Assembly (NCBI RefSeq): GCF_000265295.1
Contig: NC_018002.1
Span: 1,426,001-1,490,000 of the forward strand
Source of the DNA: Sulfurospirillum barnesii SES-3
GTDB taxonomy: Bacteria; Campylobacterota; Campylobacteria; Campylobacterales; Sulfurospirillaceae
DNA: 64,000 bases
Reading direction: 5' to 3'
Shown here: positions 4,515 through 56,394 of the stretch, in pieces
Position numbering within the stretch: position 1 is the first letter of the stretch
Layout: every line of letters starts with the position of its first letter
Position numbers and translations under genes: made by a program
The notes under the pieces: generated by a model
Databases searched by the model: none
What the model saw: the letters and a program-made list of their open reading frames with translations, nothing else
Told to the model about the DNA's origin: nothing

Positions 4515-4548
4515 CTTCTTACATGTAAAAGCTTTACATGTAAGAAGT
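4514..4548. terminator. Bidirectional hairpin made of two TTACATGTAA copies
   Basis: Two palindrome copies (4519-4528 and 4534-4543) are extended on their outer sides by ACTTC and GAAGT. This gives a perfect 16-bp stem with a three-base loop. It lies between the convergent ends of the secreted-protein gene and clpB, with T-rich sequence on the plus-strand side. This is the expected place and shape for a two-way intrinsic terminator. Confidence 0.75.
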
Positions 4549-12138: not shown

Positions 12139-12193
12139 TTGGATTTTTCAAAGTGCTTTCTTCTTTACATGTAAAGCATTTGAAAAAATCCAA
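12139..12193 (+). promoter_or_regulatory. Long hairpin in the htpG leader
   Basis: The arm TTGGATTTTT-CAAAG-TGCTTT (12139-12159) pairs with 12173-12193 in a stem of about 20 base pairs with two single-base bulges. The 13-base loop contains most of a TTTACATGTAAA copy (12164-12175). The hairpin ends a few bases before the AAGGA ribosome site (near 12200-12204) and the htpG start at 12213. It is not followed by a T-run, so it is not a typical terminator. An mRNA-stability or thermosensing role is inference. Confidence 0.5.
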
Positions 12194-14093: not shown

Positions 14094-14123
14094 TTACATG
14101 TAAGGATTTTTCCTTACATGTAA
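14094..14123. terminator. Terminator hairpin from two inverted-pair TTACATGTAA copies after htpG
   Basis: Copies at 14094-14103 and 14114-14123 carry GGA and TCC on their inner sides, giving a 13-bp stem with a four-T loop ten bases after the htpG stop. The same design occurs at 20953-20984. It is probably the htpG terminator. Confidence 0.65.
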
Positions 14124-14192
14124 GAGTAAATCAACTCTGGGGTGATGTTTAATGGATACAATCATAGTTGCATTACATGTAAAAAGGCTTAC

Positions 14193-14846: not shown

Positions 14847-16729
14847 GAGCGCTTCTTTTTATTTTTTTCATTGTGGTTTATGGGTTTGCCACAACTTCCA
14901 TCGCCGAAAAATCAGCACAACTCCACCTTACGCAAGAACAAAAGCAATGGCTTCTTGAGCATCCTCGTATCATCGTTGGGATGGACCCTGATTATGCACC
15001 GTATGAGTGGGTCGATGAACAGGGCAATTTCATAGGCATTGTGGTTGATTATCTGCATGAACTTGAACAAATACTGGGTGTGCGCTTTGAGATCGTCAAA
15101 AACAAATCATGGGAGGAGTTGCTTCTTCTTGCCAAAAAGGGTGAGTTGGACATGCTAACGAGCATTGTCAAAACGCCAGAGCGCTCCACATATCTGAGCT
15201 TTAGTGAGCCTTATCATAGCTCACCTACGATTATTGTCGATAATGGAAAAGGTGCGTTTATAGGGAGTTTAAAACAACTCAACACCAAAAGAGTCGTTGT
15301 TGAAAAAGAGTATTTTATGGCGGAGTTTATCAAAAAAAAATACCCCCAAATTCTGCTTCTCTTAGCACCTTCCACCAAAGAAGCGTTAAAAATGGTACAA
15401 AATGGAGAAGCCGATGCCTATGTGGGTGATGCCAATCTTGTGGATTATGTGATTAAAAAAAACCATTTAAGTTCATTACGTTTTTCAGGACAAACAGAAT
15501 ACATCAGTCATCAAGCATTTGCTTTTACCAAGGGCAATGAAGCGTTAGCGCCTATTTTCAGCCAAGCGATGGCGACCATTCCCAAAGAGGAATTTGATGC
15601 CATGTTTCATTACTGGCTGAGTCTTGATTATGGGATAAATCGTGAAACGCTCATCACATACAGCCTCTTCATTGCGCTTATATTTACCGTGATAGGTTAC
15701 TGGATTTATCGATTGCGCCAAGAGATTAACCAGCGAAAAAGTGCGGAACAAAAACTTAAAACAAGTGAAGAGCTCTATCGTGAGCTCACCGAAGATGTCA
15801 CCGATGTGATTTGGAAAGCCAATAGCCAGCATATTTTAACCTACATCAGCCCTAGCGTGGAAGATAAGTTAGGGTTTCGTCCTGATGAATTAGTGGGTCA
15901 TCATGTATTTGAGATGTTTACCGATGAGGGCATTGCCATCGTGATGGAGCGCATCAAACAGAGAAAAGAGAGCAAAGAAGAAGCCATAAACGATGTTTAC
16001 TCTATATTTGAAGTGCAACATAAGTGCAAAGATGGCTCGTTTATCTGGGGAGAAGTGGTTTCAAAAGCAGTCTACGATAAAAATCACACGGTTATTGGCT
16101 ACCATGGCATTAGCAGGGAAACAACGGCACGTAAAGCAATGGAGCGAGAAAAAGAGTTGTTGTATCAAGAGTTAGACCACAGGGTTAAAAATAACCTTCA
16201 AGTCATCTCCAGCATCATCTCATTGCACTCGTTACAAGAGGATACATCACGCTCACTTGAAGACATTCATAACACCATCGCCGCCATCTCTTTAGCGCAT
16301 GACAAACTCCATCAAAACGCAACACGAAAAACATTGGAGATAAAACAGTATGTCACCGCTTTGTTGAATAACCTACTTGCAAGTTCAGTGTTAGACATTC
16401 AAAAAGAGGTATACTCTCCTGAACTGTACCTAAGCGCACAATACTCCATTACCCTTGGCATCATCATCAATGAATTTGTAAGTAACTCCATCAAATACGC
16501 CTTTAAAGGCATACGCTCACCGAAAATTACTGTGACCATTGAAAAAGAAGACGGTTTTATTGCCGTTTTAGTTTCCGATAATGGCATAGGTTTCAAAAAA
16601 GAAGAAGCACCAAATTCTGGCATTGGACTGGACATCATCACAACACTCATCAAAAGTAAATTTAAAACCGATGTACGTTTTTTTAATAATAACGGAACAT
16701 CTATGGCTCTAAAAATCCCTTACATGTAA
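14843..16729 (+). CDS. Hybrid periplasmic-binding/PAS sensor histidine kinase
   Basis: This 628-residue protein has a signal segment (1-18) and a bacterial extracellular solute-binding domain (family 3, about 35-265: I-I-V-G-M-D-P-D-Y-A-P-Y-E-W). A membrane helix follows near 272-290, then a PAS domain (about 315-430). The kinase core is of the HisKA_2 type, with phospho-acceptor H in L-D-H-R-V-K-N-N-L-Q near 450, and the HATPase domain has D-N-G-I-G-F. It senses a small molecule in the periplasm and signals to the regulator before it. The last codons are TAC ATG TAA, supplied by a palindrome copy at 16720-16729. Confidence 0.88.
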   Translation: MRALLFIFFIVVYGFATTSIAEKSAQLHLTQEQKQWLLEHPRIIVGMDPDYAPYEWVDEQGNFIGIVVDYLHELEQILGVRFEIVKNKSWEELLLLAKKGELDMLTSIVKTPERSTYLSFSEPYHSSPTIIVDNGKGAFIGSLKQLNTKRVVVEKEYFMAEFIKKKYPQILLLLAPSTKEALKMVQNGEADAYVGDANLVDYVIKKNHLSSLRFSGQTEYISHQAFAFTKGNEALAPIFSQAMATIPKEEFDAMFHYWLSLDYGINRETLITYSLFIALIFTVIGYWIYRLRQEINQRKSAEQKLKTSEELYRELTEDVTDVIWKANSQHILTYISPSVEDKLGFRPDELVGHHVFEMFTDEGIAIVMERIKQRKESKEEAINDVYSIFEVQHKCKDGSFIWGEVVSKAVYDKNHTVIGYHGISRETTARKAMEREKELLYQELDHRVKNNLQVISSIISLHSLQEDTSRSLEDIHNTIAAISLAHDKLHQNATRKTLEIKQYVTALLNNLLASSVLDIQKEVYSPELYLSAQYSITLGIIINEFVSNSIKYAFKGIRSPKITVTIEKEDGFIAVLVSDNGIGFKKEEAPNSGIGLDIITTLIKSKFKTDVRFFNNNGTSMALKIPYM

Positions 16730-16798: not shown

Positions 16799-16821
16799 GA
16801 AATTATGACAAGGAATTGACG

Positions 16822-19272
16822 ATGAAACATTCCCCCGATTTTAGTTCACGCTTTAGAATCCTCAAAGGCGGAAAAATATCCTTGGTGGTATCTGCTTTAC
16901 TCACCAGTGTGAGTTTGCTTCACGCAGCCCCTAGCGGTGGCGTGGTCACCAGTGGCAGTGCGAGTATTGCGCAAAGCGGAGCCGTGACTACTATCAACCA
17001 AAGCTCTCAAAAAGCCTCCATCAACTGGCAAAACTTCTCCATTGGTGCCACAGAAACCGTAAATTTCAATCAACCCAATGTTTCAGCCATAACGCTCAAT
17101 CGTGTTATAGGCAATGAAAAATCCATCATTGATGGAGCGTTAAACGCTAATGGTCAAGTATGGATACTAAACTCCAATGGCGTACTCTTTAATTCCAGTG
17201 CCAAAGTCAATACCGCAGGACTTCTAGCGACTACGATGAACCTAAGCGATGAGGATTTTCAAAAAGGAGCGTATAGCTTTAAAGGTGACTCTAGCGCTTC
17301 AGTCATAAACTTAGGGGAAATCACTATCAGTGATGGCGGTTACGCTTCACTTCTAGCCCATAGCGTTCAAAACGAAGGAACCATAAAAGCCATTCATGGA
17401 ACGGTAACTTTAACAGGTGCACGTGAAGCAACGATAAATCTCAATGGCAACTCTTTGGTCTCTCTCAAAGTCGATAAAGGTGTTTTAGATGCGTTAGTGG
17501 AAAACAAAGGGGCTATCTATGCTGATGGTGGAAATGTTTACTTAACCACCAATGCGGTGAATGAATTACTTAAAGGTGTGGTCAATAACACAGGCATCAT
17601 TGAAGCCAACTCCCTTGATGATATTACAGGTGAGATTATCCTTTTTGCCCATGGTGGAGCGTTACATGTAAACGGCACACTTGAAGCGGAGGGTGGGTTT
17701 ATCGAGACTTCAGGAAAATCGTTACATGTAGAAGATAGCACCATCATTAAAACCAAAAAATGGCTCCTTGACCCAGATAACATGACCATTGAAAATACAG
17801 GTGGAGCAAGTTTAACAGGAGAAAGTGTGAGTGCAACTGCTATCCAAAATGCACTCAGCTCAGCTGACATTGAACTTCAAGCAACGTATGACATCACCGT
17901 CAATGAAAATATTACATGGGCAACGGCTAAAAAACTGACTCTCACCGCAGGCGATGAGATTTACGTCAATGCCACCATCAAAAACACCAATACCACCAAC
18001 GGCGGTGTTTACTTCCATGCCGCTAATACCACCGATAAAGTCATCTTCGACACCAGTGGCTTGGTCTCCATCTACAATGTTTACCAACTCCAATGGCTGA
18101 ATCAAGCGCTGAACGGAAAGTATGCGCTAGGTGGCAACATTGATGCTTCAGCGACTTCCTCATGGGACAGTGGTTTAGGGTTTTCGCCGATTGGAACTCT
18201 AACAAATCAATTTAAAGGAACCTTTGATGGCTTAGGGCATACCATCACAGGTTTATTTATCGACCGTCCAACGACAAGTTATGTTGGATTATTTGGTTTC
18301 ACAAATGGTGCTACAATCCGCAATATTGGCATTGTCAATGCCAATATAACAGGCAAGGATGGAACCGGTGGATTGGCGGGACTCTTCAATTATGGAACCA
18401 TCACCAATGCGTATGCTACTGGCAGTGTAACGGGAAAAGGTAATATGGTCGGTGGGCTTGTGGGAACGATTAGTGGTTCCACTATCACAAATAGTTACGC
18501 TACGGTGGGTGTAATAGGTAGTGGCAATGAAGTCGGTGGGCTTGTGGGAGGTGCTTACTCCACATCATCGATCGCAAATAGTTACGCCACAGGAAGTGTA
18601 CAGGGAGTAGCTTCTGTCGGTGGACTTGTGGGCATACTTTACCAGTCATCACCAATCACAAATAGCTACGCCACAGGACTTGTAACGGGGACAACTCTTG
18701 CCGGTGGACTTGTGGGTGCGTTTTCTAGCGGAGGCGCTGTCACTAACAGCTACTGGGACACCCAAACCTCTGGAAAAACAAATTCAGCACGAGGTGTGGG
18801 CAAAACCACTGAAGAGATGATGAACTCATCGACGTATGCTGGTTGGAGCATTTTAGAAGACACAACCCTTGCAAAAAACTATCCAACCCTTAGAATGGCA
18901 AGCAGTGGAAATGTGTGGGTGATTGGTACGAAAAGTACACCCACACCAAACAATCAAACGCAAACCCCCAATGTAACAGCGATTGTCAATGGTACAGCCA
19001 TAACACCACCTGTACTTCCAAATTTTACGCCTCCCACTCAAGCACCACAACCCCTTAATGCAGGAGGGGTGATGTTACAACTAGCCTCCGTCCCCAGTGG
19101 TGATGTTCCATCTCAACTCGTAGGAACACCAGAAGCTAGAGCAATGATGCAAGGAGCAGATGTTGGAGACTTGAGAGTTCCACTAGGGCAAAACTCACAA
19201 ATCCAGTTGGTTAACGGTGGTGTGAATTTACCAGCAGGTGTAGAGCAACAATATTTCATGGCACAACGATAA
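16822..19272 (+). CDS. Two-partner secretion exoprotein (TpsA), haemagglutinin-like adhesin
   Basis: This 816-residue protein has a long signal peptide (about 1-37, ending L-H-A-A) and a TPS/filamentous-haemagglutinin N-terminal domain (about 38-300). That domain has S-I-N-W-Q-N-F-S-I-G, N-S-N-G-V-L-F, E-A-E-G-G-F-I-E-T-S-G and K-W-L-L-D-P-D-N. A block of GLUG-type repeats follows (about 490-660: G-G-L-V-G, N-S-Y-A-T-G), and then a Pro/Thr/Gln-rich tail. It is small for the family. The secretion partner lies 15 bases downstream. ATG 16822 has AAGGA upstream. It is probably a surface adhesin; the target is unknown. Confidence 0.9.
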   Translation: MKHSPDFSSRFRILKGGKISLVVSALLTSVSLLHAAPSGGVVTSGSASIAQSGAVTTINQSSQKASINWQNFSIGATETVNFNQPNVSAITLNRVIGNEKSIIDGALNANGQVWILNSNGVLFNSSAKVNTAGLLATTMNLSDEDFQKGAYSFKGDSSASVINLGEITISDGGYASLLAHSVQNEGTIKAIHGTVTLTGAREATINLNGNSLVSLKVDKGVLDALVENKGAIYADGGNVYLTTNAVNELLKGVVNNTGIIEANSLDDITGEIILFAHGGALHVNGTLEAEGGFIETSGKSLHVEDSTIIKTKKWLLDPDNMTIENTGGASLTGESVSATAIQNALSSADIELQATYDITVNENITWATAKKLTLTAGDEIYVNATIKNTNTTNGGVYFHAANTTDKVIFDTSGLVSIYNVYQLQWLNQALNGKYALGGNIDASATSSWDSGLGFSPIGTLTNQFKGTFDGLGHTITGLFIDRPTTSYVGLFGFTNGATIRNIGIVNANITGKDGTGGLAGLFNYGTITNAYATGSVTGKGNMVGGLVGTISGSTITNSYATVGVIGSGNEVGGLVGGAYSTSSIANSYATGSVQGVASVGGLVGILYQSSPITNSYATGLVTGTTLAGGLVGAFSSGGAVTNSYWDTQTSGKTNSARGVGKTTEEMMNSSTYAGWSILEDTTLAKNYPTLRMASSGNVWVIGTKSTPTPNNQTQTPNVTAIVNGTAITPPVLPNFTPPTQAPQPLNAGGVMLQLASVPSGDVPSQLVGTPEARAMMQGADVGDLRVPLGQNSQIQLVNGGVNLPAGVEQQYFMAQR
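18350..18760 (+). repeat. GLUG-coding tandem repeat block in tpsA
   Basis: Four to five imperfect units of about 84-90 bases each contain a G-G-T-G-G-(A/G)-C/T-T-T-G-T-G-G-G-like core encoding G-G-L-V-G, followed by an N-S-Y-A-T stretch. Units start near 18366, 18448, 18532, 18618 and 18700. Such repeats can change in number by recombination. They are coding repeats, not a CRISPR array. Confidence 0.7.
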
Positions 19273-19287
19273 GGAAAAGGGACAAGA

Positions 19288-20934
19288 ATGAGAACCGTAA
19301 AAATTATAACACTATCACTAACAACTGCATCTTTCCTCTTTGGGGCACCACCTACCGTGAGTGATATAGAAAGAAACGTGCAACCACCCAAAGAGGTCGA
19401 ACGTGGGATGAACAATGTCATCCCAACACTTCCCACACAAGAGATAAAGCCCGCTATGAGTGACATGGGTGGAAAAAGCATTGAAGTTAAAGGCTTTACA
19501 CTCAGTGGGGCTTTACATGTAAAGAGTGAAACACTGCTTTCTTTACTAGAACCTTATGCAGGTAAAAGCTATACCTTAGGTGAATTAGAAAAGATAACCG
19601 CCTTAATTACCAAAGCGTACCGTGAAGAGGGATACTTCGTCGCCCGTGCGTACATCCCAAAACAGAGCATGAAAGAGGGTATTTTAGAGATAGCCATCAT
19701 TGAAGGAAACTATGGAGCGTTTCACCTTACCAACAGCTCCCTTGTGTCCAATGAAAGAGTGCAAGGCATGTTAGATGCTATTAAGCATGAGAATATCATC
19801 AGTACCCATACCCTAGAGCGTGCTATGCTTCTTATCAACGATACCCCCGGCGTGAAAGTTACAGGAGCCGATGTCAAACCTGGAGAAAATGTAGGTACAT
19901 CGGATTTTGAGATGAGAACAGAAGCAAGCAATCCTTATAGTGCCTATATCGTAGGGGATAATTATGGCTCCAAATACACAGGGCGTCATCGAGTCAATGC
20001 AGGGCTTAGTGCAAACTCTCCTTTAGGTTATGGCGATAAATTTGGTATCAATGGGGTGCTCTCTTCCTCAACGGATTTAAAAAATGGCAAGGTCTATTAT
20101 AATTTTCCCTTGATGGATAATGGGCTAAGAGGAGAGCTAAGCGCCTCTCGTACTACCTACTCCCTTGCAGAGGAGTATAAAGCCCTTGATGCGCTAGGTC
20201 ATTCAACCACCCTTGAAGCCTCACTCTCTTATCCACTCATTCGTACACGTTTAGAGAGCTTACACCTCTCTTTGGGATATGCGCATAAAAAGATGAAAGA
20301 TGAGATTGAAAGTACCGATGATGTCACCAAAAAAGACTCAAATGCACTTAGTCTTGGAGCCAATTACCTCAAAAACCACACGCTTTTTGGTATCAACAGT
20401 AGCCTTACCAGTGAACTTAAACTCACCAAAGGAGAGCTAGACAGTCCTAGTAACAGCGATACCGATGGAGCGTATGCCAAAGTTGCAGGCAGTGTGGAAC
20501 ACACCATGGCATTCTCACCGTTGTATGCGCTTACCACCAGCCTTCGCTTTCAACACGCACTGGGCAATAAAAACCTCGATGGAAGTGAAGACTTCTCTTT
20601 AGGGGGAGCCTATGGGGTAAGAGCCTTTCCCGATGGTGAACACTCTGCAGAAAATGGCTATATCCTAGGAGCTGAACTCTTTTATACCTTACCTTCTTTT
20701 GAGGGAATCATGCATAAAGCAAGCCTCTTTGCCGATACAGGCTATGCCACCATGCAAAACGAAAATGGCACACAAGAGAGCAGGCAGCTCAGTGATATAG
20801 GCATAGGCTATCAGGCGTCTTACAAACAATTCTTTGGCAAAGCACAAATCGCCAGAGTCATTGGCGGGGAAAAGGTTGAGAGTGAAAGCGAACGCTCCAC
20901 AAAACTGTTACTGCAACTAGGCTTTGTCTACTAA
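19288..20934 (+). CDS. Two-partner secretion outer-membrane transporter (TpsB, ShlB/FhaC family)
   Basis: This 548-residue protein has a signal peptide (1-20), a Pro-rich linker helix region and a POTRA domain (about 70-140: G-F-T-L-S-G-A, then Y-R-E-E-G-Y-F-V-A-R-A-Y-I-P). The rest is a 16-strand barrel. It contains V-R-A-F-P-D-G-E, the family's loop-6 motif variant, and ends in a terminal aromatic (F-V-Y). It secretes the adhesin encoded just upstream. A palindrome copy at 19512-19523 is read L-H-V-K at the start of the POTRA domain. Confidence 0.93.
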   Translation: MRTVKIITLSLTTASFLFGAPPTVSDIERNVQPPKEVERGMNNVIPTLPTQEIKPAMSDMGGKSIEVKGFTLSGALHVKSETLLSLLEPYAGKSYTLGELEKITALITKAYREEGYFVARAYIPKQSMKEGILEIAIIEGNYGAFHLTNSSLVSNERVQGMLDAIKHENIISTHTLERAMLLINDTPGVKVTGADVKPGENVGTSDFEMRTEASNPYSAYIVGDNYGSKYTGRHRVNAGLSANSPLGYGDKFGINGVLSSSTDLKNGKVYYNFPLMDNGLRGELSASRTTYSLAEEYKALDALGHSTTLEASLSYPLIRTRLESLHLSLGYAHKKMKDEIESTDDVTKKDSNALSLGANYLKNHTLFGINSSLTSELKLTKGELDSPSNSDTDGAYAKVAGSVEHTMAFSPLYALTTSLRFQHALGNKNLDGSEDFSLGGAYGVRAFPDGEHSAENGYILGAELFYTLPSFEGIMHKASLFADTGYATMQNENGTQESRQLSDIGIGYQASYKQFFGKAQIARVIGGEKVESESERSTKLLLQLGFVY

Positions 20935-20952: not shown

Positions 20953-20984
20953 TTTACATGTAAGGAAAAATCCTTACATGTAAA
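20953..20984. terminator. Paired-palindrome hairpin between tpsB and the DUF255 gene
   Basis: Copies at 20954-20963 and 20974-20983 face each other with GGA/TCC inner flanks, giving a 14-bp stem and a four-base loop between convergent genes. The right-hand copy also provides the TAA stop of the minus-strand gene. It has the same design as 14094-14123. Confidence 0.7.
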
Positions 20985-22710
20985 GTGTTACAGCTCGCAC
21001 AGCCTCAGGGTAGGCATGGGCATATTTTTGAATGCCAGCTCCAAAACTCTCCAACATATCACGTGCTCGAATAAAGAGCGCTGTGTTATCTTCGATTTTG
21101 GCTAATTCAAACAGATTTTTAATCATCGTGGAAAGCGGGCTTTTGTAGCTGTTATCTTCCAAAACCGCTTTAGCACGAAAGGCTTTATCGGAGAGGTACC
21201 ACGTCTCATCTTTGTAAAATTTATGCTCAGCTTCATGGCTTAGTTTCTTTGCTAACGCTAGGTACTTCGCCTCTTTCGTATGCACATAACCGCGAAGTAA
21301 GCTTTCGATGACAAAGGCGTAATCTTCGAGCAACGCTTCCACTTTCAAACTGCCGCCGAAGACGATTTGGTGGTATAAAATGCCGTTTACATGTAAAGAT
21401 TTTAAAAGCGTATCAAGCACGCTTTTTGCTTTCTCAGTTTTACCTGCTTCAAACAAAGCCGTCACCATCAAGGCGTTCCAAGCGGTCAATATTTTGGTGT
21501 CGATAAAGGGATACGCTACCTTTTGGCGTACCTCTTTTAAAATCACAATCGCTTCATCTAAGCGATCAGGTTTTTCGTTACATGTAAGAATGGGATTGGT
21601 GCTTTGGTGCTCAAAATTGCCAAATTTGGTGATACCAAAATAGTCCATGACCGCCTTAGCTTCCGCCTCACTTAGCCCACCTTTTAAAAGAGCCTCTTTG
21701 GCTTGTGCATACTTAAACACAAAGTATTTGCCCTCTTCCCCCTCAGAGTCCGCATCGCTGGCACTGAGATAAAGTCCCTCTTTTAAAAACCGCTCATCCA
21801 TTGCTTCGATGGTTTTATCGACCACGTCATTAAACAATGGTTTTTGTGTCAATGTATACAGTTTGGCATAGACTTCAATCAGTTCGGCATTGGTGTAAAG
21901 CATCTTTTCAAAATGAGGAATCACCCACGCTTCATCGACACTATAACGGTAAAATCCACCCTCTATTTGGTCATTTATGCCACCTTGCGCCATCGCAGTA
22001 AGAGCATCTTCGCTCATATATAACGCTTCAAGATTTTTGCTTTGCGCATAAATATCTAAAAGGGCATTCCATGTGGAAGCATGGGGAAATTTGGGCGCAC
22101 TTCCCACACCTTTGGAAACATCATCATAACTAGCTTTAACATTGCTCACAAACGATTCTAAAACAGCCTCTTTTTCAATGCGGCTCTTCTGTTCAAAACT
22201 ACGCTCATAATGTTTAATAGCCGCCTCAATGCTCTGCGCACTCTTTTGAACTTCCTCATATTCATCATCGAATTTACCTTTGATGAAGCTTGTGAGTTCT
22301 CGAAATCCCATGCGTCCTTGAGCACTTTGAGGTGGTAAGTATGTTCCAGCGAAAATAACCTGCCCAGAGGGCGTCATAATGATACTCAGAGGCCAGCCAC
22401 CACTTCTTTTGGTCAGCAGATAATGCACGTCTTGGTAGTATTTATCAAGATCTGGCATCTCTTCACGGTCAACCTTAATGCTGACATATGAGTCGTTGAG
22501 TAGTTTAGCACTCACGTCATCTTCAAAGGTCTCACGCTCCATCACATGACACCAATGACAGGTGCTGTACCCGATGGAGAGAAAGATCAGCTTGTTTTCC
22601 TCTTTGGCTTTGGCAAGGGCTTTATCGCTCCACGCCATCCAGTTAACAGGATTATGGGCATGTTGAAGTAGGTAAGGAGAATCCTCATGGATCAGTTCAT
22701 TGGTGTGCAT
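20974..22710 (-). CDS. DUF255/YyaL-type thioredoxin-domain protein
   Basis: This 578-residue protein has an N-terminal thioredoxin-like DUF255 domain ([14 protein letters not shown] and the C-H-W-C-H motif near residues 45-50). A six-hairpin glycosidase-like alpha/alpha barrel follows, with [15 protein letters not shown] and T-A-W-N-A-L-M. Members are often about 670 residues, so this one lacks a C-terminal part. It ends exactly in T-L-Y-M-stop made by a palindrome copy. ATG 22710 has AGGAG upstream. The function is not well defined. Confidence 0.85.
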
Positions 22711-22772: not shown

Positions 22773-24803
22773 TTAATGTACCATTCCTGCTTCAACTAAA
22801 AAGGGTGAATGCGTATAGCTAATCTTCTTAATCTTGTCATACTTCGCATAGGAGAGATAGAGCATGTCTTTTGCCCTCGTGGTTGCCACGTAAAAGAGCC
22901 GTCGCTCCTCTTCGAGGCTTCCGCCTTTTTGCATCAGTTTACGATTGGGAAAGCGTCCATCCATCAAATCAATGACGTACACTTCTTTAAACTCAAGCCC
23001 TTTACTGGCGTGAATGCTGAGCAAATTAACTCCCTCACCCTCACTCATCTCGTTACTTCCTAAGGTTAGGGCATTTAAAAAGCGCTCACTTGAGGCGTAG
23101 GAGCTAGACAAATCTTTGAGCAAATGCCCTTTGCGAAAGATACGAGAGCGAGCTTCTGCTTTTTGCTTTTCATCGACACTGCCATCTTTTTTAATGGAAC
23201 GCTTCACCGATAGTGTCTCAGCAATGGCGCTAAACACTTCGGAGCTTAGCACATGATTTATCAAACTTTGTGGGGTCTTAATGCGTGTGGCATGTTTCAT
23301 AAATTTGTAAAACTGGTGCAAAAACTTTGCACCATCAATGCTTAGGCGAGGATGTTTTAAAATGGGATTGGATAAGAACTGCTCTTCAAAACCCAAATCG
23401 TAAAAACGACTCACACTACCCAAATCAAAAATTTCATCAAAAAGTCCTAATTGATGGTTTTTAGGACGCTTTTTAAAAATTTCCTCAACCCCCGCTTTAG
23501 GATGAAAAAAACCGTTATAGATGTTCCCCTCTCCTAGTTTAAACAAACCATCAAAAAGCTCTTTGGAGAGTGAACTTCCCACCCCTCTGGCATACTCAAA
23601 AGTATGAATAAACGCCATCATATCTTTAGGATTGACCACCACGCCTACCAAATCAAGCATGGCTTTGACTTCCGCCGCATCAAAAAAGCTAATGCCCCCT
23701 TTTCGTTTACACGCAACGCCCTGCTCTCTTAAGGTCGCTTCAATGCCATCCGCACTGGAGTTATTGCGAAAAATAACGGCAATATCCGCATGTGCATTCT
23801 TCGAGTTTTTAATTAAAGAGGAAATGGAGTGGTACTGGGCAAAAAGCTCATCGTAAATGAGCAGTTGTGGTGCTTCAAAGGCACCATCACGGGTGACTTC
23901 CAAACGCTTTTCATAGAGTCTTGGATTTTTTTCAATAACACGGTTGGCTAGGGAGAGAATTTTATGGGATGAGCGGTAATTTTTATTGAGAGTAAAAACA
24001 TTTGCTCCCTCATAACGCTTTGCAAACGAGCCGATAATATCAATATTGGCTCCATTAAACGCATAAATGCTCTGGTCATAATCGCCCACGCAAAAAAGTG
24101 ATTTGGAGCGAAACGCATCAATTAAAGAGCCTTGCAAGGTATTGGTATCTTGGTACTCATCAATTAAGACCTCTTCAAAAAAAAGTTCATGTTCTTTTTT
24201 CAATGCCTCACGCATAAAAATGAGCAAGTCATTAAAATCCACATAGCCAAATTCTCTTTTTAGGGCTTGAAACTCTTCAAAAATATCTTCGTAAATATCA
24301 AAAAAGACACCATGTTCACTGTCATTTTCCTCAAGCCACTGCGTAAAACTCTGTGTAACGGTGCTGTTTTGATAGAGTGAAAACAAATCATACAAATATT
24401 GCGCACTGTAGGCTTTGACACCTGAGTCTATATGATCAAACCGTCTTCGCTCCACAATACTTTTAAGTAAAATCTTAAGGTCTTTAGGCTGTTTTAGGAC
24501 AATGTTTCGACCCATTTTTTTAAGCAAACGGTAACTTACCGCATGAAAGGTACCTGATTCTATTTGCGAAGTAATGGCTTGAGGGAAAAAAGCACTCACA
24601 CGCTCTATCATCTCAGCGGCGGCTTTATTGGTAAAGGTTAAAAGCAAAATTTTTGAAGGAGCAACACCGTTTTTTAACAAATATGCCAGTCTTGCAACAA
24701 TGGTCGAGGTTTTTCCTGTGCCAGCACTAGCAATAATAAGATTGTAACCTGATGGTGCCGTAGCAGCACTTTTTTGCTCAGTATTGAGACGAGTAAGAGG
24801 CAT
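22773..24803 (-). CDS. UvrD/Rep-family ATP-dependent DNA helicase
   Basis: This 676-residue superfamily 1A helicase has motif I A-S-A-G-T-G-K-T, motif Ia T-F-T-N-K-A-A-A-E-M and motif II D-E-Y-Q-D-T-N. Motif III is G-D-Y-D-Q-S-I-Y-A-F, motif IV N-Y-R-S-S-H-K-I, motif V H-A-S-K-G-L-E-F and motif VI E-E-E-R-R-L-F-Y-V-A-T-T-R-A. It unwinds DNA 3' to 5' in repair or replication restart. UvrD, Rep and PcrA cannot be told apart here. It stands alone, 60 bases from the DUF255 gene. Confidence 0.93.
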   Translation of the reverse strand: MPLTRLNTEQKSAATAPSGYNLIIASAGTGKTSTIVARLAYLLKNGVAPSKILLLTFTNKAAAEMIERVSAFFPQAITSQIESGTFHAVSYRLLKKMGRNIVLKQPKDLKILLKSIVERRRFDHIDSGVKAYSAQYLYDLFSLYQNSTVTQSFTQWLEENDSEHGVFFDIYEDIFEEFQALKREFGYVDFNDLLIFMREALKKEHELFFEEVLIDEYQDTNTLQGSLIDAFRSKSLFCVGDYDQSIYAFNGANIDIIGSFAKRYEGANVFTLNKNYRSSHKILSLANRVIEKNPRLYEKRLEVTRDGAFEAPQLLIYDELFAQYHSISSLIKNSKNAHADIAVIFRNNSSADGIEATLREQGVACKRKGGISFFDAAEVKAMLDLVGVVVNPKDMMAFIHTFEYARGVGSSLSKELFDGLFKLGEGNIYNGFFHPKAGVEEIFKKRPKNHQLGLFDEIFDLGSVSRFYDLGFEEQFLSNPILKHPRLSIDGAKFLHQFYKFMKHATRIKTPQSLINHVLSSEVFSAIAETLSVKRSIKKDGSVDEKQKAEARSRIFRKGHLLKDLSSSYASSERFLNALTLGSNEMSEGEGVNLLSIHASKGLEFKEVYVIDLMDGRFPNRKLMQKGGSLEEERRLFYVATTRAKDMLYLSYAKYDKIKKISYTHSPFLVEAGMVH

Positions 24804-24871: not shown

Positions 24872-25408
24872 TTACAGATACCAATGGCTTTGCACTAATT
24901 TTCCCTCTTTATACTCATCAATATAGGCTTTTTTAGGTTCATCATTGCTAAGCCATAAGCGATATTCCATCTGGGGAGTGGTGATTTCTATGCCTTTTTC
25001 AACCGTACGATAATTGCCTTTTGAGAGTTCTTCAAACACACGTGAGAGAACGTGTTCCGTTCGAGGAAGATTTAACTCTTTAAGATTAATTCCATCATGC
25101 ATAAATTGATAAATCAATTTTTTTTGAAGCATCAAGGTTGTGAAGTACGACGCACTTTCTCGATACTCTTTCGTACTGAGTAAATTTTTACTGATTTGTC
25201 CTAAAGGTTGAATGGCATCTATTTTGGCACAGGCATCTCCAATAGCAACTAAAATTTCTTCATTGCGTTCATTTTTAAGATAAAACTTAGCACCATCGGA
25301 ACATACTTTTTCATAACGCTTCGCCTGATAATCGTTTAAAAGATCACGATACGAATCAGCATAAGCGATATAACAGAAAAACAGTACCCAACATAAAAAA
25401 AGTCTCAT
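24872..25408 (-). CDS. Periplasmic protein linked to the CtsP/MshN-like genes
   Basis: This 178-residue protein has a signal peptide (about 1-17, ending Y-A-D) and helical, TPR-like stretches with two Cys. I do not recognise a family. It overlaps the preceding gene by four bases (ATGA), so it is the third gene of the operon 26851-24872 and may serve the same pilus-like or transformation apparatus. Confidence 0.6.
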   Translation of the reverse strand: MRLFLCWVLFFCYIAYADSYRDLLNDYQAKRYEKVCSDGAKFYLKNERNEEILVAIGDACAKIDAIQPLGQISKNLLSTKEYRESASYFTTLMLQKKLIYQFMHDGINLKELNLPRTEHVLSRVFEELSKGNYRTVEKGIEITTPQMEYRLWLSNDEPKKAYIDEYKEGKLVQSHWYL

Positions 25409-26061
25409 CTTTGCCCTTTATAAAAATTTAACAGTTCATTTATTTCTTCAGATTTAATGTATCCTAAAATACGTTCCAAAGAACTTATGGCTTCTTCTCT
25501 ATCACCTAAGTGAAATTTTGATTTTGCATAGATTATCCATGTCTGTTCTGCATTAGGATTTAACTTATTTGCCCTTTTTGCCCAGTCAATCGCTTCATCG
25601 TACAATTTTTGTTCAAAACAAAATTGCGCAAGAACATAAGCATTTTCATACGTAGGTGCATACTTATATGCTTCAACAAGGGAATTTTCTTTCAAAAACA
25701 GTAAGCGTTCTGCTTCGAGGTCTTGTTGTGTTAATGTAACATTCTCTTCTTTTGATTTAAATTTAGGTGCTAAAAAAAGAGTTGGAACATTCGTATCAAT
25801 TGGCTCTATAGGGGTTTGTGTTACTACAACACTCGCAATGTCTTGTGTTTCATTTAGCTCTACTTTTTCCGCAACGACCACTTCAGCTGAAGATGGCAGA
25901 GGAGATGTTTCAACATAAACTTCTTTGGGGGTATAAACGAACCAAAAAACACCAAGCACTGTTACTAAAAGAAACAAACTAGAGATGTACACTCGAATTA
26001 AATGCTTCTTTTCCAATGCCTTACAACGCTTTTCTAGCATTTCAAATCGTTTACCTGTCAC
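25405..26061 (-). CDS. TPR membrane protein, MshN-like
   Basis: This 218-residue protein has a charged cytoplasmic start, one membrane helix (about 24-42) and a Pro/Val-rich periplasmic spacer. The C-terminal TPR repeats (about 125-215) contain W-A-K-R-A-N-K-L-N-P-N-A. The layout matches MshN of MSHA pili and the gene beside ctsP in Campylobacter. GTG 26061 has AGGA seven bases upstream and overlaps the ATPase gene by 11 bases. It probably belongs to a type II secretion/type IV pilus-like assembly; the secretin, assembly ATPase and pilins are not in the window. Confidence 0.6.
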   Translation of the reverse strand: MTGKRFEMLEKRCKALEKKHLIRVYISSLFLLVTVLGVFWFVYTPKEVYVETSPLPSSAEVVVAEKVELNETQDIASVVVTQTPIEPIDTNVPTLFLAPKFKSKEENVTLTQQDLEAERLLFLKENSLVEAYKYAPTYENAYVLAQFCFEQKLYDEAIDWAKRANKLNPNAEQTWIIYAKSKFHLGDREEAISSLERILGYIKSEEINELLNFYKGQR

Positions 26062-26851
26062 AAATCAGTCCTATTTCCAATGCTGTCATCATTAGCAGTC
26101 TATTGCTCAGGGTTGTATACTCAAGAAGATATTGGTTTTGAGAAAACTCCAAAAGATGAAACAGTGTGTATAAAAAGTGTCGAATGGTGCGAAAATTTCC
26201 TTTGGCATAACGAGCAATCTTTTTGGCATCGTGTGCAGAAAACATCAAAGCAATTTCACCTTGAGAATGCACCATCAAATAAGATTGAAGGTATCGGTGT
26301 AATTCATGTTTTGCCAATAGCCCACACACAATAGAGGCTTTTGAACAAGACGTAAACGAAGGATGTTCTAGCATCTTTTGTTTTGCTTCACAAGGCACAG
26401 AAAGAACACACCGAAAGACCTTATTATGGCACAATGTTGCAAGCAATTCACACTGTTTTTTCCCTAATAAATGGGCTTCATCAATAAAAATTGTACACAA
26501 ACTCTCTTGATAAATTTCTGTTAATTGCTTTACATGTAACGCTTGTGTCAGCGTCTCATCAAACAGCACTCCTTTTTGCGTGTACAGCCGTAAAAAGAGC
26601 TCTTGCCACTCAAAATAAGCATGAGGCATTAAAATGGAATGGGGGAAAAAAGAAGATGAGCGATGCAGAACATGCAACATGTGTGTTTTACCTACGCCCG
26701 CATCTCCGATGAGAAAAAGAAGGGAATGGTGATTGGCATCAAGCGTGTCTATTACTTTTTTACGTGCTAGTTCCGCACTCATGCTATCAAAGTAAAACGA
26801 TGTAGTAACACTGTCACGAAACAAGGTTTTTGCAATTCCAAAATTTTTCAT
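26051..26851 (-). CDS. ExeA/MshM-type AAA ATPase, CtsP-like
   Basis: This 266-residue P-loop ATPase begins like the ExeA/GspA group (F-Y-F-D-S-M-S-A-E-L-A-R-K-K-V). It has Walker A G-D-A-G-V-G-K-T-H and Walker B C-T-I-F-I-D-E-A-H-L-L. In Campylobacter a protein of this kind, CtsP, is needed for natural transformation; in Vibrio MshM belongs to MSHA pilus biogenesis. The neighbour with MshN layout supports this class. The start could be ATG 26851 or GTG 26854; the ribosome site is weak. A palindrome copy at 26530-26539 is read L-H-V-K. Confidence 0.7.
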   Translation of the reverse strand: MKNFGIAKTLFRDSVTTSFYFDSMSAELARKKVIDTLDANHHSLLFLIGDAGVGKTHMLHVLHRSSSFFPHSILMPHAYFEWQELFLRLYTQKGVLFDETLTQALHVKQLTEIYQESLCTIFIDEAHLLGKKQCELLATLCHNKVFRCVLSVPCEAKQKMLEHPSFTSCSKASIVCGLLAKHELHRYLQSYLMVHSQGEIALMFSAHDAKKIARYAKGNFRTIRHFLYTLFHLLEFSQNQYLLEYTTLSNRLLMMTALEIGLICDR

Positions 26852-26923
26852 CACAACACTTTTATTGAAATCATGAATGATTGTAACATATTCTTTTCAA
26901 AGAACCCTGAAATGAGATGAAAT

Positions 26924-27442
26924 TTAAAAATTGACAGCGTTATCGTCGGGTATTAATGAGCGCTTAGGTAAAGGTGGTGCTAAATTAAGCGGTTGAAAAG
27001 ATTGTGCTGGGGGCTGTTGTTGCTGTTGCTGTACTGCTTTGGGTGCATTTTTTTGTTGAAATAAGGCTTCTTTTTTAATGGCATCAATGATTTCTTGCGT
27101 TGTTGGATTGGTTTTTAGGCTCAACTCCTTGATATAAATCGCATCAATCACAAGACCATGTGTTTTCTTCGCATATCCAATCAAGGTCGATTTTAAAAGC
27201 TCCTTTCCTTTAGACATTACCAAATCTTCTGCGTAATAACTTCCAATAACAATATTGAGCGCATCAATGACTTTGTGCTCATTTGTACTCACTTCACTTC
27301 CCTCAAATACCAAAGCCACTTCCACCTCTACAGGCTTTTTATCGACTTTTGAGAAGACGTTGGCTTTAAAATGTTCCACAACCAACGTCTGTGCGAGAAG
27401 ATTTACATGTAAAAGTATACAGATAAAAATAAGGTAGCGCAT
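26924..27442 (-). CDS. Secreted protein with weak FliL-like pattern
   Basis: This 172-residue protein has an N-terminal hydrophobic signal or anchor (1-17) and a mixed alpha/beta region. The run V-E-V-E-V-A-L-V-F-E-G with a later D-L-V-M-S-K-G-K-E-L-L-K-S-T-L recalls FliL. It ends in a Gln/Pro-rich tail. The FliL link is weak and by eye only. AAGG precedes the ATG. It lies ten bases after the next upstream gene, so the two are probably co-transcribed. Confidence 0.45.
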   Translation of the reverse strand: MRYLIFICILLHVNLLAQTLVVEHFKANVFSKVDKKPVEVEVALVFEGSEVSTNEHKVIDALNIVIGSYYAEDLVMSKGKELLKSTLIGYAKKTHGLVIDAIYIKELSLKTNPTTQEIIDAIKKEALFQQKNAPKAVQQQQQQPPAQSFQPLNLAPPLPKRSLIPDDNAVNF

Positions 27443-27964: not shown

Positions 27965-27999
27965 GTGCTAGCTCCTTTATTTTCTTTACATGTAAATCG

Positions 28000-29328
28000 T
28001 CAAAAGGCATCAAAAAGTGAATCGCTAGGCTGTTCTTCTATTTTTAAAATCTCCGATTTTTCGTAGAACTCCCCTACTTTTGGCGAAACTTGCACACACC
28101 GCCTCACGTGTTCTGAAAAACGAGCATAATGGTAATCCAGTAACAATTGGTTGGGGTAGCGTGCTCTTGAAATTGCCACATAAAACTGACTCTTTTCAAA
28201 AATAGTGTTGATGTTACACACCAAAGAATCAATGCTCATGCCCTGAGACTTATGAATCGTAATCGCATAGGCAAGTTTGAGGGGAAATTGCTCCAAAGAA
28301 ACCAATGGCTTTTCTTGCACTTCACCATTCAAGAGTACATTTTCATGCAAAGTGTACTCTTGACGCTCAACTTTCACAAACTCACCCGCTTTTTCAACCA
28401 CCACCTCTTTTTCATCAATAGCATGCACAATGCCTCGCTCACCGTTGTAGTACTTTCCCCATTTATTGGTACAAAAAAGTACCTTTGCACCCACTTTAAG
28501 GGTTAAATCTACAGGCACAGGAAGCGCATTTTTCCACCCTTCTATTTTGTTTACATGTAAGGATTTTTCATGCACTTTTTCTTTGGCTTTAAGCACGATG
28601 GGTTCACTTTTTATCTGTGCCAATTTTTGAATATTGAGCATCTCCGCCTCTTTGTTCCTGCCAAATAAAACCGTAGGATCATCATCCCAGACCGATACAT
28701 TGTTACGTAAGGCGTCTAAATATACCAGCGTTTCTTCTTTTAAGTGACCTTTTCGGATGTGGCTTAAATGCTCAAAAAAGCATTCATCGTGTGTACGTTT
28801 TGTTTTGGTTAGCTCAACAACGACAGGCTTAAACGCACTCCATGCACTGCTCTCAAACGCATACTCCAATCCTCCTAAAAGTGAATCATTTTTGGCTTTT
28901 GAGACAGGTGGAAGCTGAAAAAAGTCCCCCACAAACAGGACACTTCCCTCAAAACCCGCATTGCGAAGACGGTAATAAATCATATCAAGCAAATCCGCTG
29001 ATACCATGCTAATTTCATCAATCACCAGCAAATCACATCGGCTTAACACTTTTTTAATTTCAGCCAATCGAGCTTTAGTATAGCGGTCATGCCGTGTCAA
29101 TTCATCTAAGTCATTGCAAATACCAAAGGCAAAAAAGCTGTGTACCGTTTGCCCTCCCACATTGACCGCACTGACACCTGTACTGCCTAAAACCACCACT
29201 TGTTTGCCAATTTTTCGTAGGTTTGTCACGACTTCGCCCACAAGATAACTCTTGCCAACACCCGCACCGCCTGTAAGTAAAGCGTGGCTCTTTTGTAAAA
29301 TATCAATCAGTTTTAATGAAAGGCTCAA
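28000..29328 (-). CDS. Pif1/RecD-like DNA helicase
   Basis: This 442-residue superfamily 1B helicase has Walker A G-G-A-G-V-G-K-S, a T-G-V-S-A-V-N-V-G-G-Q-T-V-H-S-F-F motif, Walker B L-V-I-D-E-I-S-M-V, and G-D-F-F-Q-L-P-P-V. Near the C-terminus are A-Y-A-I-T-I-H-K-S-Q-G-M-S and Y-V-A-I-S-R-A-R. This is the Pif1 pattern of 5'-to-3' helicases. It starts at TTG 29328 with AGGA six bases upstream. A palindrome copy at 28551-28560 is read L-H-V-N. Confidence 0.88.
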   Translation of the reverse strand: MSLSLKLIDILQKSHALLTGGAGVGKSYLVGEVVTNLRKIGKQVVVLGSTGVSAVNVGGQTVHSFFAFGICNDLDELTRHDRYTKARLAEIKKVLSRCDLLVIDEISMVSADLLDMIYYRLRNAGFEGSVLFVGDFFQLPPVSKAKNDSLLGGLEYAFESSAWSAFKPVVVELTKTKRTHDECFFEHLSHIRKGHLKEETLVYLDALRNNVSVWDDDPTVLFGRNKEAEMLNIQKLAQIKSEPIVLKAKEKVHEKSLHVNKIEGWKNALPVPVDLTLKVGAKVLFCTNKWGKYYNGERGIVHAIDEKEVVVEKAGEFVKVERQEYTLHENVLLNGEVQEKPLVSLEQFPLKLAYAITIHKSQGMSIDSLVCNINTIFEKSQFYVAISRARYPNQLLLDYHYARFSEHVRRCVQVSPKVGEFYEKSEILKIEEQPSDSLFDAF

Positions 29329-29385: not shown

Positions 29386-31362
29386 GTGACATTTCGCACG
29401 CTATTTCTTTTTACATGTAATCTCTTACTCTTCAGTGGTTGCGCCATTAAAGAGCCCCTGCTCAGGCAAAACGAACCATATGCACCATCCACCCAAAGTC
29501 TTGTACAAAACATTGTGCCACAGAACATTGCTCAGGATGATTTTACCTACCGTTACTACAAACCATGGTTTAAAACACACCTGAGTCATAAAAAAGAAGA
29601 TGCCTCATGGGCCAATAAATCCTATGGCATTAAAGGACGTTACTATGGTGAAAATTTACAGCTTATTGGCGATGATGAAGTCGATGCACTCCTAAAAAGT
29701 ACCAATTTTGAAGCCCATGGAAGTGTCAATGCCCATGCCATTATGCTTCAAAATGAACAAATGCGTAACCTCCCAACCCACAAGCCTTTTTTCAAAAAAA
29801 CCACGCTTCCAGGAGAGGGGTATCCTTTTGATTATTTGCAAACCTCACGCATTCATATCGCAGAACCCATTCTCATCTCACACTATTCACGAGATGGGGC
29901 ATGGGCGTATGTGGAAAGCTCCTTTGCTGCAGGCTGGTTGCCTAGCAACAGTTTTGTATGGCTTGATGCGAAAGAGCGAACTCCCTTCATTAAGGCGTTA
30001 AAAATAGCAATTGTTCAAGACAATGTGCCCCTGTATAACGCAAAACAACACTTTGTCAGTTACGCCAAAGTAGGAGCTATTTTTCCTATAGAAAATGAGG
30101 ACGATAACTTTTTTTATACCTTTATTTATACCAAAGATGCCAATGAAGAAGCGAGTAAACTCACCCTTTTTATTCCCAAAAGCTTTGCGAAAAAAGTTCC
30201 TCTTGAATTTTCACAAGAGAGCATTCACCAACTCTCCAACACGCTCTTAGGTGAAAAATACGGATGGGGAGGCTACCTCAATAACCGTGACTGTTCGGCT
30301 ATGACACGTGATTTTCTAGCCCCTTTTGGCGTATGGATACCTAGAAACTCTGCCGCACAAAAGAGTTTTGGAGAGTACATCTCTTTAAAAGATTTAAGCC
30401 CAAAGGAAAAAGAAGCCATGATTTTAAAACACGGCATTGCCTTTTTAAGCCTCATTTACCTCAAAGGGCACATTATGCTCTATGCAGGTGAGGTACAAGA
30501 AAAACCGTTTGTAATGCACAATGTCTGGGGTGTAAAGACATTGGAAAATGGGAAAGAGGGACGTGATATTATTGGAAAAGCAGTCATCACCGATCTTTAT
30601 GTGGGTGCCAATCAGCCCAATGTTCCAGAAGCAAGCCTACTGATTAACCGTGTTGAGGGTATTTTGGTCAAACCAACGTATGCTACGAAAAACAACCTTG
30701 TCTCCAAATACCCCAGTGTCAAAGCCATCAAAGACAACAACGTCTATTTTATGGATGGAAGTACACTCCCTTACGATGACAAACAAGCGAAACATTTTGA
30801 TGAATTGCTTGAAAATGCAGACATCGAAGATATGTTCACCCAAACATACCCTGCTTTTTTCCCCATCACACCTCCCACGCTCAATGACGACCCAGGACGT
30901 TTTCGCAACGATGCTTTTTTGAAAAAACTTTATGGCGAGAGTAAAAAAGAGATAGAAAAAAACTTAACGGAAGTCATTTGGTTACCCAATCATGGGGCTA
31001 AAAAACTTAAATTTAACCAAAATGAAAATGCGGCGATGCAACTGCAAAAAGTCTCCGATGAACTCGACCGTTTGCCTGAGAAATACATGAAATACCTTAA
31101 AAATCCAGCAGGAACATATGCATACCGACCTATCGCAGGAACCTCAAGGCTTAGCGCACACAGCTATGGCATCGCCATTGATTTAGAAACAAGCTACTCA
31201 CGCTACTGGCGCTGGGATAAAACCTACACCTTTCACAATGAATTTCCCAAAGAGATTATTGATATTTTTGAAAAACATGGTTTTGTTTGGGGCGGCAGAT
31301 GGTACCACTACGACACCATGCACTTTGAGTATCGACCTGAGCTGTTTGAGAGTATAGACTAA
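29386..31362 (+). CDS. Lipoprotein with SH3, NlpC/P60 and M15 peptidase domains
   Basis: This 658-residue protein has a lipoprotein signal (L-L-L-F-S-G-C near residue 19) and SH3-like segments (about 140-270). The NlpC/P60 domain (about 285-410) has catalytic Cys in N-R-D-C-S-A-M-T and His in G-H-I-M-L-Y-A-G. A C-terminal M15 (VanY-like) domain shows S-R-L-S-A-H-S-Y-G-I-A-I-D-L and W-Y-H-Y-D-T-M-H-F-E-Y zinc motifs. Both domains look active, so it may cut two kinds of peptidoglycan bond. The start is GTG with AAAGGGG upstream. A palindrome copy (29411-29420) lies in the signal peptide as T-C-N. Confidence 0.85.
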   Translation: MTFRTLFLFTCNLLLFSGCAIKEPLLRQNEPYAPSTQSLVQNIVPQNIAQDDFTYRYYKPWFKTHLSHKKEDASWANKSYGIKGRYYGENLQLIGDDEVDALLKSTNFEAHGSVNAHAIMLQNEQMRNLPTHKPFFKKTTLPGEGYPFDYLQTSRIHIAEPILISHYSRDGAWAYVESSFAAGWLPSNSFVWLDAKERTPFIKALKIAIVQDNVPLYNAKQHFVSYAKVGAIFPIENEDDNFFYTFIYTKDANEEASKLTLFIPKSFAKKVPLEFSQESIHQLSNTLLGEKYGWGGYLNNRDCSAMTRDFLAPFGVWIPRNSAAQKSFGEYISLKDLSPKEKEAMILKHGIAFLSLIYLKGHIMLYAGEVQEKPFVMHNVWGVKTLENGKEGRDIIGKAVITDLYVGANQPNVPEASLLINRVEGILVKPTYATKNNLVSKYPSVKAIKDNNVYFMDGSTLPYDDKQAKHFDELLENADIEDMFTQTYPAFFPITPPTLNDDPGRFRNDAFLKKLYGESKKEIEKNLTEVIWLPNHGAKKLKFNQNENAAMQLQKVSDELDRLPEKYMKYLKNPAGTYAYRPIAGTSRLSAHSYGIAIDLETSYSRYWRWDKTYTFHNEFPKEIIDIFEKHGFVWGGRWYHYDTMHFEYRPELFESID

Positions 31363-33160: not shown

Positions 33161-33286
33161 CTTTGGCTTCCTTTATTTACATGTAAATATTTTCACACAT
33201 TCTAGCTTGATTTAGTCCGTCATTTTACATGTAAGCATTTTTTATATTCCTAGATCTAAATCAAGGTTTTTTAGATTTTAATCAGA

Positions 33287-35070: not shown

Positions 35071-35095
35071 CCTTTACATGTAAAGGTTACTTCTC
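35062..35095. terminator. Perfect 34-base palindrome shared by nnrS and rmuC ends
   Basis: The sequence is its own reverse complement over 34 bases and is centred on TTTACATGTAAA (35073-35084). As RNA on either strand it folds into a 15-bp stem with a four-base loop. The left side codes E-K-stop of nnrS and the right side E-K-stop of rmuC. It is a probable two-way terminator that also carries both stop codons. Confidence 0.75.
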
Positions 35096-36373: not shown

Positions 36374-36409
36374 AAAAACGCTCCTAAAATCTTTTACATG
36401 TAAACAGAA

Positions 36410-56356: not shown

Positions 56357-56394
56357 TTTTTTCCTTTACATGTAAAACGAAATTTTGACAAATA

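Follow-up and report, generated by a model that had tools for sequence, protein, structure and literature searches.

The DNA analysed here, hereafter the window, is the 64,000-base stretch spanning bases 1,426,001-1,490,000 of one 2,510,109-base contig of Sulfurospirillum barnesii SES-3. Among its genes is a minus-strand trio encoding an ATPase, a membrane-anchored tetratricopeptide repeat (TPR) protein and a 178-aa protein, followed by genes for a UvrD helicase and a DUF255 protein. The window also contains 37 exact copies of TTACATGTAA, a perfect palindrome of 10 bp. An initial annotation had matched the ATPase and the TPR protein to the transformation loci of Campylobacter and had proposed that a dispersed palindrome could serve as a self-recognition sequence. 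We confirmed the three open reading frames (ORFs) of the trio at 24872-26854. Our results show that the trio is left over from a second pilus cluster, and suggest that the palindrome is a candidate DNA-uptake tag whose upkeep may depend on an orphan adenine methylase encoded elsewhere in the genome. Compared genomes are designated by G numbers, G000 being the genome that holds the window.

The trio ATPase matched Pfam AAA_22 (E 3.2e-9) and the second protein matched TPR families; a Pfam search with the 178-aa protein gave no match. A complete cts-like cluster (cluster 1) was found in the same genome at 1191-1200 kb, comprising three MshI/J/K-like genes (named by position, with no Pfam match), a secretin, an AAA ATPase, a TPR protein, T2SSE with MshEN, and T2SSF, an order that we take to equal mshI-G and C. 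jejuni ctsR-F. The trio ATPase aligned with the cluster-1 ATPase at 26% over 209 aa (E 9e-18), and the two TPR proteins aligned at 39% over 71 aa (E 2e-12). In G061 and G195, which represent two related genera, orthologs of the trio occupy the same syntenic place, with the same uvrD alongside, inside a complete second cluster resembling that of the mannose-sensitive haemagglutinin (MSHA) pilus. These second clusters contain a secretin, T2SSE, T2SSF, MshI/J/K-like genes and, judged by eye, several prepilin-like genes; the 178-aa protein aligned at 44% over 160 aa with the product of the gene lying between the TPR protein and T2SSE in G195. The order of MshI/J/K-like genes, secretin, AAA ATPase, TPR protein, T2SSE and T2SSF is shared by the MSHA cluster, the C. 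jejuni cts locus, cluster 1 and the complete second clusters, whereas the window retains just the ATPase, the TPR protein and the 178-aa gene. Because its orthologs lie inside complete second clusters, the trio is what stayed once the rest was lost, and synteny and comparison show it to be the leftover of a second MSHA-like pilus cluster rather than a transformation locus.

The genome's T2SSE matches (211, 343 (weak), 600 and 1193 kb) and its four prepilin matches (886, 1640, 1641 and 1724 kb) all lie outside the window (1426-1490 kb), in agreement with the earlier remark that assembly ATPase and pilin genes are missing near the trio. No secretin was noticed near the trio either, although the whole window had no secretin search; the full set of secretin, T2SSE and T2SSF clustered with an ATPase and a TPR protein, as in a cts locus, stands at 1191-1200 kb. 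The proposed cts-type match thus survives as homology to the cluster-1 pair but not as assignment to a transformation locus, and what had been described as one split system is better viewed as a pair of systems of which one has been dismantled.

The dispersed palindrome mentioned in the initial annotation is TTACATGTAA. It occurs 1,230 times in the 2.51-Mb genome, compared with 6 occurrences of the reversed control, a genome-wide over-representation of the order seen in uptake sequences (~1 per 1-2 kb). A weak consensus runs outward from the core as CTTTACATGTAAAG in a sample of 464 kb that contains 241 perfect copies. Single-mismatch variants at inner positions 2-5 numbered 8 in this sample, against ~20 under a model whose expectation the motif itself inflates, and variants of the outermost base (T1) numbered 38. 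The inner 8 bp of the palindrome tolerate almost no variants. Across 20 stretches the copies are evenly distributed (index of dispersion 0.91), except that pairs lying within 25 bp of each other are commoner than expected (12 versus 2.8). Motif density per kb is 5.67 in convergent intergenic regions, 2.03 in tandem and 1.71 in divergent ones, and 0.38 in coding DNA. An integrative element is depleted, with 1 motif versus 8.6 expected in 16.5 kb (P=0.0018). This candidate integrative conjugative element (L020, 1810-18333; G000:C1:2271810-2288333) encodes a ParA-like protein, a 1,318-aa protein and an integrase-like ORF, and was judged by eye from ORF starts.

Individual copies are strongly conserved. 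When the window was aligned with G123 (81% identity, 45,092 aligned bases), 22 of 26 motif sites were common to both genomes, 2 were lost and 2 gained; the neutral expectation for an intact 10-mer at this identity is 12%. Where the amino acid was unchanged, the third codon position was identical in 38/38 cases inside motifs versus 6,682/10,746 (62%) outside, so the motif is held at the DNA level. The comparison with G248 (78.7% identity) gave 9 common sites and 2 lost, and that with G146 gave 0 common sites and 8 rows lost (two sites being counted in two overlapping alignments), most alleles carrying 1-2 substitutions. One motif site was found at the orthologous place in Sulfurospirillum and in G335, a member of another family, at 71% identity (L095 versus L105; 1/1).

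The DNA around the palindrome is also patterned. A/T content oscillates with a period of 11.2-11.7 bp through three turns on both sides of the motif in 5/5 Sulfurospirillum genomes, and in each of them 0/500 displaced controls reached the signal. The phased flanks were present at coding (n=319; controls from the same gene and phase) and intergenic sites (n=273) alike, with 0/300 controls reaching the signal in each class. They were likewise significant in pooled pieces from GTDB with at least 3 motifs (n=406, 0/300), many of which are Sulfurospirillum. Pasteurellaceae uptake sequences are described as carrying A/T segments about one helical turn apart that are thought to aid kinking (PMC1626085, PMC7811141), and all five Sulfurospirillum genomes likewise show helically spaced A/T segments next to the core.

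We surveyed the motif across 397 Campylobacterota genomes, 15 of them Sulfurospirillum. Fourteen of the 15 Sulfurospirillum genomes were motif-rich (238-1,496 copies), the remaining one, G146, having 49, and all five members of two sister genera were also rich (107-657 copies). Scattered motif-rich genomes occurred in other families (G335, 1,059 copies; G116, G367, G357 and G129, 340-380; G306, 194), and most other Campylobacterota genomes were near the control level. Motif pairs were also sought in GTDB contigs, which gave at least 120 stretches; among the 80 listed, the ones outside Campylobacterota mostly contained little more than the pair, with a few tandem-like exceptions (L145, L198). 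Forty-seven viral stretches also carry a motif pair, at densities of 0.13-1.12 per kb. No comparable palindrome that might represent another uptake dialect was seen in 20-kb samples of the motif-poor relatives G146, G061 and G163. In G319, one stretch (L030, G319:C1:100001-108301) holds a word cluster repeated ~36 times in 8.3 kb, probably a clustered regularly interspaced short palindromic repeats (CRISPR) array.

We then compared motif counts with eight protein families: the trio ATPase, T2SSE, DprA, ComEC, PF02086, PF01555, PF07963 and a D12-class adenine methylase protein. The methylase was the sole family that separated Sulfurospirillum genomes by motif count. G000 encodes a single PF02086 methylase, whose D12 match is over the cut-off and which has a catalytic DPPY that does not vary and an almost invariant FAGSG. 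The genes beside it, read by eye, encode a TAT-signal protein and a histidine kinase in G000 and CheY in relatives; no restriction gene was recognised among the ORFs read by eye within 1.5 kb on either side, so that, like CtsM of C. jejuni, it appears to be an orphan adenine methylase without a restriction partner. Its structural model (mean pLDDT, the predicted local distance difference test, 88.6) gave an uninformative result: the 50 matches listed were to generic methyltransferase folds, with a TM-score of at most 0.41 by query length. PF01555 methylases, present in 6/24 genomes, numbered 0 in G000 and were dismissed as partners of the motif. A second copy of the methylase, 51% identical, lies on an S. 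diekertiae plasmid (L355 / NZ_CP059996.1).

Syntenic orthologs of the methylase (at least 62% identity, a cut set after seeing the result) were found in exactly 10 Sulfurospirillum genomes, which are those with 1,056-1,496 motifs. The five genomes without it carry 934, 412, 411, 238 and 49 motifs (naive rank p=0.0003). Had any match been accepted, G209 (53%, at another place) and G146 (E 5.5e-8) would count as methylase-positive. Four of the five show an empty site at the methylase's place: 107 bp in G182 versus ~1,000 in G056, 474 for 1,275 bp in G146, 479 for 1,302 in G209 and 394 for 1,316 in G350; the locus was not found in G240. The motif has decayed in these methylase-less species, and the patchy density in G209 (S. 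cavolei), where the 20-kb stretches L025, L104 and L124-L129 hold 11, 2, 1, 10, 2, 8, 3 and 2 motifs (P=0.001 versus even spread), fits a system in decay. In f8, one of the families within the compared set, the methylase family was present in 6/9 genomes with at least 30 motifs versus 4/42 with fewer (p=0.0008), and with the threshold set at 70 in 4/7 versus 6/44 (p=0.02). This comparative genetics suggests that the orphan methylase sustains the motif.

The genome also holds the machinery on which an uptake sequence would act. In addition to cluster 1, it contains two prepilin genes ~5 kb from comEC, a PilT-like ATPase gene at 211 kb, and both comEC and dprA. The initial annotation had named the absence of comEC, dprA and pilus genes as a reason to abandon its proposal; all are present, and by gene content the organism has the components that transformation needs. 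In two relatives dprA is split, by 34.6 kb in G240 (G240:C8:271719-306839; 934 motifs) and by 23.5 kb in G271 (G271:C4:153796-177886; 1,127 motifs), probably by mobile elements that inactivate transformation. The PilT-like ATPase gene of G146 (L091, G146:C1:240531-241331) has one in-frame stop, and relatives carry intact copies; as the stop is alone in an otherwise well-kept gene, we judged it too young to have caused the full decay of the motif in that genome.

By comparison with known systems, the anatomy of TTACATGTAA is that of a putative uptake sequence. Like the uptake signal sequences (USS) of Haemophilus and other Pasteurellaceae, it is a 9-10-bp core in the order of 1,000 copies, accompanied by helically spaced A/T segments and kept at the DNA level inside genes. 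It differs from them in being perfectly palindromic, in having A/T tracts on both sides over three turns, in its near lack of single-mismatch copies and in its link to a methylase, and its uptake role is putative. With the DNA uptake sequence (DUS) of Neisseria it shares a 10-bp word at a density in the order of ~1 per kb; the DUS lacks flanking motifs and is not palindromic. The other precedent is C. jejuni, described as taking up only DNA methylated at RAm6ATTY by CtsM (summarized in PMC10046745); a further account gives M.CjeNI as Cj0208, with site RAATTY (PMC4889913). The parallels are the same phylum, a cts-type machine, a palindromic site and an adenine methylase. RAATTY, however, is described as a short site that is simply common (27,280 occurrences); TTACATGTAA, by contrast, is in strong excess over expectation, and its methylation is putative.

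The uptake-like anatomy, the methylase association and the C. jejuni precedent are most simply read together as a palindromic uptake tag linked to methylation. We consider the chances evenly balanced that TTACATGTAA with its phased A/T flanks is such a tag, with upkeep dependent on the orphan methylase. Somewhat more tentatively, we propose a methylation-licensed uptake code, in which the methylase would mark the palindrome, the pilus machine would read the mark as self, and transformation would drive the ~1,200 copies. Under this model, the cts-like pilus machine and ComEC would take up DNA with a preference for fragments bearing the palindrome, the incoming DNA would recombine, and the uptake bias would maintain the ~1,200 copies. 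The orphan D12-class methylase would probably methylate the palindrome or an overlapping site, and the methylated form alone would count as self, as with RAm6ATTY and CtsM in C. jejuni; once the methylase was lost, the bias would stop and the sites would decay by point mutation. The abundance and sharpness of the motif, its conservation at the DNA level, the phased flanks, the decay in species lacking the methylase and the presence of competence genes are observed; that uptake is preferential, that the motif is methylated and that cause runs in this direction is inferred. Gene-scale interspecies mosaicism in Sulfurospirillum also speaks for the model: between G056 and G206 (L331-L350), 1-kb windows at 0-1% divergence abut tracts of 10-19%, that is, apparently extensive homologous exchange with diverged relatives.

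Several observations weigh against this proposal. The uptake cores known to us are not palindromic; an asymmetric core is typical of USS and DUS, if not strictly defining, and TTACATGTAA lacks it. The fall-off with mismatches is a cliff for TTACATGTAA, whereas over-representation in Haemophilus and Neisseria is described as declining gradually with mismatches (PMC1939737). In other genera the phased flanks were not significant in a small sample (n=44, 23/300 controls reaching the signal). Divergence near motifs is not reduced and is slightly higher if anything, and homogenisation of the adjacent DNA by recombination was not seen. ComEC and DprA were found in 36/36 genomes searched, motif-rich and motif-poor, and therefore do not discriminate between them. 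ACATGT outside the motif occurs at expectation, CATG is low in methylase-plus and methylase-minus genomes alike, and word counts reveal no shorter target for a methylase embedded in the motif. The methylase losers fall in ~4 places on a small protein tree, so the genus contrast represents ~4 losses, or 3 gains, and not 15 independent points; the naive p=0.0003 thus overstates the case, and the association is partly phylogenetic in origin. The methylase family was matched at E<=0.001 in 241/397 genomes, including those of the motif-free, Campylobacter-like family f2 at ~50% identity, and G061 has the family yet 7 motifs; conversely, G165, G129, G367, G306 and G319 are motif-rich without a close copy. 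Family without motif and motif without family would mean that there is more than one specificity or that other methylases can serve.

The strongest alternative is unlikely in our estimate: an orphan methylase may mark the palindrome for a role inside the cell (mismatch repair, or the control of replication or recombination) unrelated to uptake. The model for it is the cyanobacterial highly iterated palindrome HIP1 (GCGATCGC), whose abundance is described as tracking cognate methylases (PMC4390886). TTACATGTAA is likewise a highly iterated palindrome that follows an orphan methylase; the presence of the methylase wherever the palindrome is abundant is perfect in the 15 Sulfurospirillum genomes, partial in f8 and broken by the five motif-rich genomes without a close copy. 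Deviations also pile up at the outermost base (T1, 38, versus 8 at positions 2-5), as described for HIP1. However, HIP1 holds shorter methylase targets, whereas in this AT-rich 10-mer no shorter embedded target is visible and no shorter palindrome shifts as expected, and the phased A/T flanks over three turns resemble Haemophilus-type uptake sequences. We know of no such flanks as a feature of HIP.

It is improbable that the copies are bound inside the cell by a protein of the nucleoid, of segregation or of regulation, with a dimer recognising the palindrome and phased A/T tracts aiding DNA wrapping. The perfect palindrome, the phased flanks and the strong conservation of individual sites agree with such sites, but ~1,230 redundant and almost variant-free copies would be hard to obtain by binding-site selection, and their even spread also speaks against it. 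The motif is rarer between divergent than convergent genes, which argues against promoter sites, and the link to the orphan methylase would be left unexplained.

Finally, it is very improbable that the trio is the ctsP/ctsX pair of a working transformation system, merely placed apart: its ATPase and its TPR protein both have homologues in the cluster-1 pair, and its ATPase ORF is intact in 14/15 Sulfurospirillum genomes, but cluster 1 has its own ATPase and TPR protein, the trio orthologs belong to complete second clusters, and neither the trio's integrity nor its presence follows the motif. An ATPase match is present in 15/15 Sulfurospirillum genomes, and the broken gene is that of G379, which keeps 1,245 motifs. 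G165 (567 copies) has no trio, whereas G146 (49) and G061 (7) have it. On synteny, paralogy and this lack of covariation we rejected the trio as the link to competence; the palindrome nevertheless has strong independent reasons to be considered a self-DNA tag, and to that extent the initial proposal stands.

The trio has a history of its own. Relative to G123, its ATPase is 56% and its TPR protein 48% identical, yet uvrD is 98% identical, and both trio proteins are, by this comparison, fast-diverging. In close species pairs the two genes are near-identical while flanking genes differ (G235/G248 synonymous difference, 0.000 in the ATPase and 0.376 in uvrD), which points to interspecies exchange of gene-sized segments. 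The ratio of nonsynonymous to synonymous divergence (dN/dS) was <1 wherever computable, so the remnant may still be useful. Elsewhere in the window, at 16816-20934, a large ORF with degenerate 84-nt repeats (~18.4-18.7 kb) is followed by a ShlB/FhaC two-partner-secretion transporter (19288-20934). Coordinates are given in Table 1.

Table 1. Exact motif copies, the trio and its syntenic anchor (window positions), and the orphan methylase (genome position).
Feature	Position	Strand	Remark
ExeA/MshM-like AAA ATPase, 267 aa	26051-26854	-	AAA_22; orthologs in complete second clusters of G061, G195; paralog of cluster-1 ATPase
Membrane-anchored TPR protein, 218 aa, MshN-like position	25405-26061	-	TPR families; same position in G061, G195
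178-aa protein of second cluster	24872-25408	-	similar to G195 second-cluster gene
UvrD-type helicase, syntenic anchor beside second cluster	22773-24803	-	Pfam UvrD; adjoins complete second cluster in G061, G195
D12-class adenine methylase (PF02086), orphan	G000:C1:2225021-2225992	-	D12 match over cut-off
Motif TTACATGTAA	1638-1647		in ORF
Motif	4519-4528		between ORFs; close pair with 4534
Motif	4534-4543		between ORFs
Motif	7024-7033		in ORF
Motif	12165-12174		between ORFs
Motif	14094-14103		inverted close pair with 14114
Motif	14114-14123		partner of 14094
Motif	14173-14182		in ORF
Motif	16720-16729		at ORF end
Motif	17662-17671		in ORF
Motif	19513-19522		in ORF
Motif	20954-20963		inverted close pair with 20974, between convergent genes
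Motif	20974-20983		partner of 20954
Motif	21387-21396		in ORF
Motif	21578-21587		in ORF
Motif	26530-26539		inside trio ATPase gene
Motif	27403-27412		in ORF
Motif	27986-27995		between ORFs
Motif	28551-28560		in ORF
Motif	29411-29420		in ORF
Motif	33177-33186		between ORFs
Motif	33225-33234		between ORFs
Motif	35074-35083		between ORFs
Motif	36394-36403		between ORFs
Motif	37702-37711		in ORF
Motif	43907-43916		in ORF
Motif	44644-44653		in ORF
Motif	48157-48166		in ORF
Motif	53012-53021		in ORF
Motif	54461-54470		in ORF
Motif	56366-56375		between ORFs
Motif	56943-56952		in ORF
Motif	57401-57410		in ORF
Motif	59158-59167		in ORF
Motif	59302-59311		in ORF; close pair with 59314
Motif	59314-59323		in ORF
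Motif	62330-62339		in ORF

Self-DNA recognition in transformation is known as two separate schemes, a word present in many copies (Haemophilus, Neisseria) or methylation (Campylobacter jejuni). Both schemes appear joined here, in culturable environmental bacteria. In the openly licensed papers that we searched we found nothing on the motif, on uptake words in Campylobacterota or on transformation in Sulfurospirillum. If the methylation-linked uptake tag is real, Campylobacterota would have a tag of the sequence type, one that differs from those known to us in being palindromic, and the tag would form a bridge between sequence-based and methylation-based self-recognition, with repeated loss of the tag following loss of the methylase. 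The genomes that have naturally lost the methylase, with motif decay advanced to different degrees (934, 412, 411, 238 and 49 copies), make it possible to test two old questions directly: does uptake bias or some other function maintain uptake words, and what does marking them bring? The motif system also offers a route to look for transformation in Sulfurospirillum.

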